From an uncultured SAR86 cluster bacterium (GTDB lineage Bacteria; Pseudomonadota; Gammaproteobacteria; Magnimaribacterales; Magnimaribacteraceae): 64,000 nucleotides of DNA. A program made the translations under genes and the position numbers. Location of the stretch: positions 1 to 64,000 of the forward strand of contig CACBBD010000004.1 in NCBI GenBank assembly GCA_902537425.1. The letters run 5' to 3'. The notes below the pieces were generated by a model. It had not been told where the DNA came from. It saw only the letters and a list, made by a program, of their open reading frames with translations, and made no database searches. Of the stretch, positions 12,374-14,883 are shown one piece after another. How positions within the stretch are numbered: the first letter of the stretch is position 1; every line of letters starts with the position of its first letter.

Positions 12374-12916
12374 ATGACCGATACAACTATTTCTTCAATC
12401 TTTGCAGAACTGTCAAAGTTAGATGAAGACACATTCCCTCCTGTAGAAAGTTGGGATCCTCCACTATGTGAAAATGTTCATATGAAGATTGATCGGAATG
12501 GAAAATGGTATTTTATGGATTCTGTGATAACTAGGGAACGTATGGTGAAATTATTCAGTAGGGTATTAAGGTTAGATGGTGAAGAATATTTTCTAGTAAC
12601 ACCAGTAGAAAAAATAAAGATTGAAGTTGAGGATAAGCCATTCACAATAGTTGATTTTGAATTCTCAGGTAAAGGTCATGAGCAGGTAATAACTTTCCGA
12701 ACAAATACAGATGAAATATTTGAAGTAAATAGAAACCATCCCATTAGAGTAGCAACTTTGGGTAATAATGATGAACCTTCACCTTACGCACTAGTCAGAA
12801 AAAATTTAGAGGGACTGATATCTAGAAACGTATACTATAAGTTGATAGACATGGCAGAGGAGGTTGATGGGTTTTATGGCGTTTACAGTTCTGGAAATTT
12901 TTTCAGACTTAATTAG
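12374..12916 (+). CDS. DUF1285 domain-containing protein
   Basis: PPVESWDPPLCENVHMKIDRNGKWYFMDSVITRERMVKLFSRVLRLDGEEYFLVTPVEK is characteristic of DUF1285. Confidence 0.85.
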   Translation: MTDTTISSIFAELSKLDEDTFPPVESWDPPLCENVHMKIDRNGKWYFMDSVITRERMVKLFSRVLRLDGEEYFLVTPVEKIKIEVEDKPFTIVDFEFSGKGHEQVITFRTNTDEIFEVNRNHPIRVATLGNNDEPSPYALVRKNLEGLISRNVYYKLIDMAEEVDGFYGVYSSGNFFRLN

Positions 12917-12918
12917 GC

Positions 12919-12944
12919 AAAAAAAAACAGAGCTATTGCTCTGT
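12919..12944 (-). terminator. Rho-independent terminator of the candidate ncRNA
   Basis: Minus strand ACAGAGCAATAGCTCTGT followed by nine T; stem 12928-12933/12938-12943. Confidence 0.85.
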
Positions 12945-13136
12945 CTTTAGTTCGAGTTCGAAAGTGTCTAAACCGAGATTCTGTTTAGCTCCTTGATTGG
13001 TTTCTCTTCCAACCTTGGTGGTCTAAAAAACTTTTTTTGCTAGCTGTTTTTTAGAGCTTTCACCTTCCGTTCTCTAACCTATCTTTCCCCCTTTTCTTCG
13101 TCTCGAGTTGTTTCCAAGTCGGTCTGATAGGTAACA
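12919..13136 (-). ncRNA. Candidate structured small RNA of unknown family (~218 nt)
   Basis: No plausible ORF. Minus-strand TATAAT (13148-13143) downstream of T8A9 tracts; perfect inverted repeats ACCTATC/GATAGGT (13077-13083/13126-13132), TCTAAAAAAC/GTTTTTTAGA (13022-13031/13046-13055), CTAAAC/GTTTAG (12968-12973/12983-12988); hairpin 12995-13014 with a G-U pair only on the minus strand; ends in an intrinsic terminator with U9. Confidence 0.68.
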
Positions 13137-13142
13137 ATGTAT

Positions 13143-13187
13143 ATTATAGATTAATTTTTATTTTGCAAGCTTTTTTTTAAAAAAAAA
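13143..13187 (-). promoter_or_regulatory. Predicted promoter with UP-element-like A/T tract for the candidate ncRNA
   Basis: Minus strand: TTTTTTTTTAAAAAAAAGCTTGCAAAATAAAAATTAATCTATAATATAC. TATAAT at 13148-13143; TTGCAA (13168-13163) is -35-like but only 14 nt away, so the -35 assignment is weak. Confidence 0.5.
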
Positions 13188-13233: not shown

Positions 13234-14883
13234 TTACATATTCGGGTAGTTTGGTCCACCAGCTCCTTCAGGAGTTATCCAATTTATGTTTTGAGAAGGG
13301 TCTTTTATGTCACAAGTTTTACAATGTACACAATTTTGTGCATTAATTTGAAACTGCTTTTCTCCCTCTTTCTCAATTATTTCATAAACACCAGCAGGAC
13401 AGTATCTCTGTGCAGGTTCATCATACTTAGGTAAGTTAACACTCAATGGTATGGAAGGATCTTTAAGTACAAGATGACATGGTTGATCTTCTTCATGATT
13501 CGTATTGGAAAGAAATACTGAAGAAAGCTTGTCGAAACTTATTACACCATCAGGTTTAGGATAGTCAATGCGTGGCATTTCTGAAGACTCTTTTAAACAT
13601 TCATGATCAGGTTGGTCATGATGCAAAGTAAATGGCAGCTTACCTCTGAATATTAACTGGTCAATTCCTGCAAGTGCTACGCCGAGTAAAGTTCCATATT
13701 TATGTATAAATGGTAAAAAGTTTCTAGCTTTATGCAGTTCGGTTTCTAACCACGAAGATTTAAAGTTAGCTGTAACTGTATTTAGATCAGTCATAGGGTC
13801 TTCTTTGTAAAATTCTTCAAAGAGACTTTCAGCAGCAATCATCCCGGACTTCATTGCAGTGTGCGTCCCCTTTATTCTAGGGAAATTCATGGTGCCTGCA
13901 TCGTCTCCTACTAGCATACCGCCAGGAAAATGCATTTTTGGAATAGACTGGTGGCCACCTTTTATAAGAGCTCTTGCTCCATATGCAGTTCTTGTTCCAC
14001 CTACTAAATATTTTTGTATAGATGCTTGATGTTTCCATTGTTGAAACTCATCAAAAGGGCTTATGTGAGGATTATCATAATCAAGAGGCACTATGTAACC
14101 CAAAAACGCTTGATTATTTTCTCCGTGATAAAGGTACGATCCAGATAATACTCCCTTAGCTGCAGGCCATCCCATAGTATGTACAACTAATCCTTCTTCA
14201 TGAACAGAAGGGTCTAGATCCCATACTTCTTTAAAGCCTATGCCATAGTGCTGCGGATCTTTGTCTTCATCGAGGTTGAATAAACTAATAGCTTGTTTTC
14301 CTAGATGACCACGACATCCTTCGGAAAGGATCGTGTATTTAGCCATAAGATTTATGCCAGGTTCATATGAGTCTTTCTTTTCTCCATTAACATCAACTCC
14401 CATATCACCAGTAGCAATTCCTGCAACAACTCCATTGCTGATTATCAACTCAGAGGCTGTAAATCCAGGGAAGATATCTATTTCCAGTCCCTCTGCATAC
14501 TCCGCCATCCATCTACAAAAGTTGCCTAGGCTCATAATGTAGTTTCCATGATTCTTAAAGGTAGTTGCAAATAGCGTCGGTATTGAAAAGTTCAAATTTT
14601 CATTCAGTAGATACCGTACTGAATCTTTTTTAACAGGAGTATTTAGTGGCGCGCCAAGTTCTTTCCAATCAGGTATAAGTTCATCTAATGCTTTTGGATC
14701 AAAAACATTACCAGATAATATATGCGCCCCAACTTCAGAACCTTTTTCAACAACACATATTGACATCTCTTTTGATGCTTCGATTGCTTGTTGTTTTAAC
14801 TTAATTGCAGTAGACAGTCCAGCCGGTCCAGCTCCAACTATGACTACATCATACTCCATTGATTCTCTTTCGATATTTTCCAT
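13234..14883 (-). CDS. Electron transfer flavoprotein-ubiquinone oxidoreductase
   Basis: 549 aa; FAD motif VIVGAGPAGLSTAIKL, SGNVFDPKAL, C-terminal 4Fe-4S ligands CPAGVYE...INAQNCVHCKTCDIKDPSQNI. Confidence 0.95.
   Translation of the reverse strand: MENIERESMEYDVVIVGAGPAGLSTAIKLKQQAIEASKEMSICVVEKGSEVGAHILSGNVFDPKALDELIPDWKELGAPLNTPVKKDSVRYLLNENLNFSIPTLFATTFKNHGNYIMSLGNFCRWMAEYAEGLEIDIFPGFTASELIISNGVVAGIATGDMGVDVNGEKKDSYEPGINLMAKYTILSEGCRGHLGKQAISLFNLDEDKDPQHYGIGFKEVWDLDPSVHEEGLVVHTMGWPAAKGVLSGSYLYHGENNQAFLGYIVPLDYDNPHISPFDEFQQWKHQASIQKYLVGGTRTAYGARALIKGGHQSIPKMHFPGGMLVGDDAGTMNFPRIKGTHTAMKSGMIAAESLFEEFYKEDPMTDLNTVTANFKSSWLETELHKARNFLPFIHKYGTLLGVALAGIDQLIFRGKLPFTLHHDQPDHECLKESSEMPRIDYPKPDGVISFDKLSSVFLSNTNHEEDQPCHLVLKDPSIPLSVNLPKYDEPAQRYCPAGVYEIIEKEGEKQFQINAQNCVHCKTCDIKDPSQNINWITPEGAGGPNYPNM

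Follow-up and report, generated by a model that had tools for sequence, protein, structure and literature searches.

To our knowledge, IMES-1 is known from marine environmental sequences, and we know of no cultured host and no function for it. The RNA is reportedly exceptionally abundant in ocean RNA samples. It is catalogued in Rfam as RF02034. The Rfam model contains no promoter, terminator, extended 5' stem, kiss between loops 3 and 4 or self-complementary loops, and the loop of hairpin 2 is drawn as unpaired. Rfam assigns no clan to IMES-1 or to IMES-5 (RF02995), and no paper naming IMES-1 was found in the literature searched. Among RNAs that form homo-oligomers, OLE and GOLLD were studied by cryo-EM, and their symmetric kissing loops were argued from the switching of palindromes, in which adjacent bases cannot pair within the chain (PMC12286853).

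Identification of the gene

The window, that is, the whole stretch of 64,000 nucleotides analyzed, possesses a non-coding gap of 317 bp between the stop codons of the DUF1285 gene (12916) and the ETF-QO gene (13234). The host ETF-QO is 98% identical to that of uncultured SAR86 cluster bacterium isolate AG-422-M05, which marks the host as a gammaproteobacterium of the SAR86 cluster. The original prediction placed in this gap a new structured small RNA gene of unknown family, transcribed on its own from the minus strand, and proposed cmscan against Rfam as a check. In this search, minus-strand positions 12942-13128 matched IMES-1 (RF02034) with 158 bits (E 7.7e-35), the gathering score being 81 bits. 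The match covers the full model, 1-191, without truncation, and it is the sole RNA family match across the whole window. The IMES-5 model scored 19.1 bits at the locus, under its gathering threshold of 96.1 bits. In view of this full-length RF02034 match, the gene is genuine, and the claim of a new family is refuted. The locus resembles the Rfam entry in this match, in its helices and in its marine host; judged from its sequence, it is almost certainly the SAR86 gene for IMES-1, a catalogued RNA family of unproven function. The gene is thus a further instance of a known orphan family, and the new part is a testable structural prediction. The features of the locus are as follows.

12374..12916 (+): DUF1285 protein gene (Pfam PF06938, PF21028), convergent neighbour downstream of IMES-1
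12919..13131 (-): IMES-1 RNA gene (RF02034 match, fold z -3.9), with the 5' stem CCUAUC/GAUAGG and the terminator included
12919..12944 (-): intrinsic terminator ACAGAGCAATAGCTCTGT + T9, read directly and found by terminator scan, outside the Rfam model
13141..13168 (-): promoter, read directly and aligned with relatives, preceded by T/A tracts
13234..14883 (-): ETF-QO gene (Pfam PF05187, PF21162), same-strand neighbour upstream of IMES-1

Promoter, terminator and fold

The minus-strand TATAAT (13148-13143), the A/T tracts upstream of it, the stems and the terminator were all present as claimed. A -35-like TTGCAA, which had been overlooked, lies at 13168-13163. Its spacing is 14 nt to TATAAT and 16 nt to an alternative -10 element, TAATAT, the -10 region (TATAAT/TAATAT) occupying 13148-13141; since this spacing is non-standard, a simple promoter scan missed TTGCAA. 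The +1, originally put at about 13136, was moved to about 13131-13133 on the basis of the fold and the promoter alignment. The transcript probably extends from there to the T-run at 12919.

The terminator scan found ACAGAGCAATAGCTCTGT + T9, with 0.3 expected in shuffles. The fold energy was -54.1 kcal/mol, compared with -40.2 +/- 3.6 kcal/mol in dinucleotide shuffles (z -3.9), and 0 of 200 shuffles were as stable. In the relatives, TTGACA or TTGCAA, a TATTAT-like box and the T/A tracts are conserved, and the terminator is in the same position. The comparison with relatives, also proposed originally, thus gave a conserved promoter and terminator, together with covariation in the stem of hairpin 2 and in the loops. 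The minus-strand structured RNA gene with its own transcription is strongly supported. By this comparison, IMES-1 would be a stand-alone transcript of about 210 nt with a promoter and a terminator of its own.

The terminator hairpin is found immediately 3' of the stop codon of the convergent DUF1285 gene (12916-12944). In the plus-strand sense it could also serve DUF1285; no T-run is present on that side.

Structural parts of the RNA

Hairpins 2 to 4, the closing helix and the 5' stem, which are the consensus helices of IMES-1, agreed between the Rfam alignment and an independent MFE/centroid fold. The parts are listed below.

13078..13131 (-): 5' domain, stem CCUAUC (13131-13126) / GAUAGG (13083-13078) around hairpin 1, from the fold and the Rfam structure
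13102..13107 (-): self-complementary hexamer CUCGAG of loop 1, CUGCAG in families f2 and f4
12959..13069 (-): closing helix CGGAAG (13069-13064) / CUUUCG (12964-12959), enclosing hairpins 2 to 4, from the Rfam structure line
13022..13055 (-): hairpin 2, from the Rfam structure and the fold
13039..13044 (-): self-complementary hexamer GCUAGC of loop 2, proposed homodimer kissing site
12995..13014 (-): hairpin 3, whose loop GAGA (13006-13003) pairs with loop 4 in the proposed structure
12968..12988 (-): hairpin 4, loop UCUC (12978-12975), the proposed partner of loop 3

The 12995-13014 hairpin requires a G-U pair on the minus strand, as had been pointed out in favour of that strand. In family f2, the stem of hairpin 2 is strongly covarying, with changes on both sides in 6 of 9 pairs.

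Two further pairings were rejected. An extra helix GGUG/CACC flanking hairpin 2 has a variable 5' side (GGCG, GGAG, GUAG) and a fixed CCACC, so that no covariation is seen. In the other pairing, between loop 1 and the 3' tail CUCGA, the change of loop 1 to CUGCAG is not matched by a change in the tail.

Proposed pairing between loops 3 and 4

For the comparison, 137 complete IMES-1 copies were extracted. Loops 3 and 4 can form at least four Watson-Crick pairs in 128 of these copies, compared with 0.7% of shuffled loops; in nine f1 copies, only three pairs are available. The variants are compensatory (GAGA/UCUC, AAGA/UCUU, GAAGA/UCUUC and GAGAU/AUCUC), and IMES-5 has GGGU/ACCC at the equivalent place. 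These results strongly suggest an intramolecular kiss between loops 3 and 4, which would compact the 3' domain.

Self-complementarity of loops 2 and 1

Since MAFFT misregisters loop 2 across families, the hexamer was tested on family-fixed registers. Loop 2 contains a self-complementary 6-nt sequence in all 137 copies with G-U allowed, the register in f1 and f4 being set by the outer G..C or by family position, so that in f1 the free test is that of the inner tetranucleotide only. The register in f2 was unconditioned; there the hexamer is self-complementary in 86/86 distinct RNAs and 8/8 distinct hexamers, and other offsets reached at most 59%. Twelve hexamers occur: GCUAGC, GGUACC, GUCGAC, GUCGAU, GUCGGC, GUAUAC, GUUAAC, GUUGAC, GUGCAU, GUGCGC, GCAUGC and GCCGGC. 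On a tree built without the hexamer, at least 24 replacements were counted, and none of 3000 tree simulations with an equal number of changes kept all copies self-complementary (mean 29%, maximum 82%). Pair counting gave 100% paired cells, with a covariation score reached by 0 of 500 shuffles. Purines flank the hexamer on both sides, and it always lies within the hairpin loop.

No intramolecular partner of the loop-2 hexamer was found, a 6-nt complement elsewhere in the RNA being present in 1 of 137 copies. Neighbouring bases of a single chain cannot pair with each other, and the simplest reading is therefore that the hexamers of two IMES-1 molecules pair. IMES-1 thus has the pattern expected of a homo-oligomer, a self-complementary loop that covaries at adjacent bases. 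We infer, on strong comparative grounds, that loop 2 pairs with its counterpart in another IMES-1 molecule, which would give a working homodimer or a larger oligomer. Loop 1 is self-complementary in 137/137 IMES-1 copies and 42/43 IMES-5 copies. The sequence CUCGAG is present in f1 as well as in 42 of the 43 IMES-5 copies, and CUGCAG in f2 and f4. With two variants only and one non-palindromic exception in IMES-5, loop 1 supports a dimer less strongly than loop 2, and it probably also takes part in the dimer contact. We regard the dimer model for IMES-1 as likely.

The palindrome could instead be the recognition site of a homodimeric protein, acting on RNA or DNA, with IMES-1 remaining monomeric. 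A symmetric protein would bind a palindrome, and CTCGAG/CTGCAG and the loop-2 sites are palindromic as DNA too. However, a site read by a protein would normally be conserved in sequence, whereas loop 2 has undergone at least 24 changes among 12 sequences in one order with only self-complementarity kept. In addition, the hexamer is always in a hairpin loop with purines on either side. We therefore consider the protein site unlikely and prefer the RNA-RNA kiss.

In family f2, IMES-1 genes are duplicated in tandem or nearby, at distances of 0.3-10 kb, in a number of genomes (G035, G480, G481, G482, G483, G493, G495, G504 and others). In the duplicate pairs checked (G495 and G493), the loop-2 palindromes of both copies are mutually compatible.

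Distribution and gene neighbours

IMES-1 was detected in 128 of 203 genomes of the host (SAR86) order and in none of 365 other genomes (class sample of 369). Among the genomes searched, this comparison indicates that IMES-1 is specific to the SAR86 order. It occurs in families f1, f2 and f4; f3 lacks it, its few matches being weak (about 34 bits).

In f1, the neighbours LysE, DUF1285 and ETF-QO are kept in most copies, and IMES-1 immediately follows the co-oriented ETF-QO gene. This arrangement would suit a 3'-UTR fragment or a cis-regulatory element of ETF-QO or DUF1285. However, IMES-1 possesses its own conserved promoter and terminator. Furthermore, gene neighbours are not conserved between SAR86 families: in f2 and f4 it stands beside unrelated genes (M20 peptidase/SSF, IDO, glucokinase and prephenate dehydratase), and it is present in two or more copies in some genomes. 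We consider a UTR or cis-acting origin extremely improbable. Since promoter and terminator travel with the RNA and the f2 and f4 neighbours are unrelated, IMES-1 would be a trans-acting RNA rather than a leader or UTR fragment.

Viral carriage of IMES-1 was rejected. The IMG/VR contigs L275 and L276, in which parts of IMES-1 (L275:2084-2162 and L276:1-122) accompany phage-like genes, end inside IMES-1 at shared words and look chimeric. They might be chimeric assemblies, as from very abundant IMES-1 reads.

Relationship to IMES-5

IMES-5 is above threshold in f3, and f1 has both RNAs; together, IMES-1 and IMES-5 cover the four families of the order. A distance of about 13.7 kb separates their genes in G005, an f1 genome consisting of a single contig, with IMES-5 on the DUF1285 side. 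The host genome (G000) gave no IMES-5 match; at the spacing of G005 the gene would fall just past the contig start (window base 1), and hence this result is uninformative.

With the IMES-1 model, IMES-5 copies reach 30-34 bits (E about 1e-5), which is sub-threshold. They resemble IMES-1 in the ACUCGAGAC loop, the AGAAGGGUGAAA strand, the CCCCUUC closing strand and two adjacent kissing hairpins. From the sub-threshold scores and these shared motifs, we infer that the two RNAs share ancestry. In contrast to IMES-1, IMES-5 is about 150 nt and has a short hairpin 2, mostly with a tetraloop, and no variable palindrome. Because IMES-5 lacks a palindromic loop 2, loop-2 dimerisation is not superfamily-wide. 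IMES-5 may be a shorter branch of the same superfamily with a similar job.

IMES-5 was also seen near a gene reading like tryptophanyl-tRNA synthetase (L129:1230-1417 and L130:1263-1413). It is directly upstream of such a gene in f3 (G036), and one small gene lies between them in f1 (G022). Several f1 copies of IMES-5 have no visible terminator hairpin downstream.

Comparison with housekeeping RNAs

The original prediction recognised no signature of RNase P, tmRNA, SRP or 6S RNA at the locus, and cmscan matched no known housekeeping RNA there; Rfam searches for 6S (RF00013), tmRNA and RNase P RNA were negative at the locus. 6S RNA resembles IMES-1 in size and as a stand-alone small RNA, and the 6S gene of the host genome is elsewhere (G000:C2:35356-35533, 87.5 bits). 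Genuine tmRNA was found in four near-complete relatives, with sub-threshold matches only in the incomplete G000, and RNase P RNA was found in all five genomes. IMES-1 as 6S, tmRNA or RNase P RNA was thus rejected, each being encoded separately in the lineage.

SRP RNA (RF00169) was not matched even at E 10 in the five SAR86-order genomes G000, G005, G038, G036 and G040, four of which are 95-97% complete; in controls it was matched in 11-13 of 14 genomes. IMES-1 or IMES-5 occurs in all four families, and either could in principle be a hidden replacement for a housekeeping RNA such as SRP RNA. However, the Ffh M-domain (PF02978) is also missing from these genomes (0/5, compared with 14/14 controls), which leaves any SRP RNA without an SRP protein to serve. 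No SRP domain-IV motif was seen in IMES-1 by eye, and 6S, tmRNA and RNase P RNA are present in the lineage. A replacement role is thus scarcely credible, and the results suggest that the SRP pathway has been lost in free-living SAR86.

Discussion

As for its cellular role, IMES-1 might be an abundant trans-acting RNA, either a scaffold or a binder of protein, that exposes the well-conserved single-stranded CCACCAAG and CAAGGAGC. This role is speculative, and we rate it lower than the dimer model.

ARGGA is the core of CsrA sites. CsrA is encoded in the genome, the IMES-1 copy in the window has five GGA, and CAAGGAGC matches the ARGGA core, all of which would fit a sponge of the CsrB/RsmY kind that sequesters CsrA/RsmE. 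However, GGA shows no clear enrichment (on average 4.8 in each IMES-1 copy, range 0-8, compared with 4.2 in shuffles). The conserved linker AAGGAGC varies to AAGGCGC and AAGGATGC, so that its GGA is gone from several copies, and the linker is absent from IMES-5. Multiple conserved and enriched GGA in loops, as in CsrB/RsmY-type sponges, were thus not found, and we consider this function very unlikely.

Taken as a whole, the explanation we prefer, that of a SAR86 IMES-1 gene encoding a trans-acting RNA with a loop 3-4 kiss and a loop-2 homodimer, is probably correct. The broader proposal, that two palindromic kissing loops join this RNA of about 210 nt into homodimers or chains and that IMES-1 and IMES-5 constitute one SAR86-wide superfamily, seems to us only somewhat likelier to be right than wrong. 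With its assignment to a single order, its proposed link to IMES-5 and a defined, predicted dimer interface, the orphan becomes testable. What is new here is the self-complementary loop 2 across 137 copies, which points to a kissing-loop homodimer. If this is true, a bacterial group that is among the most abundant in the ocean depends on a homo-oligomeric RNA.

IMES-1 would then be a compact natural homo-oligomeric RNA with a logic comparable to that of OLE and GOLLD. The parallel with the OLE, GOLLD and ROOL homo-oligomers (PMC12286853) consists in symmetric kissing loops with palindromes that have switched during evolution. Those RNAs are large and ornate, with oligomers seen by cryo-EM, whereas IMES-1 is about 210 nt and its oligomer is predicted; the likeness proposed is one of logic.
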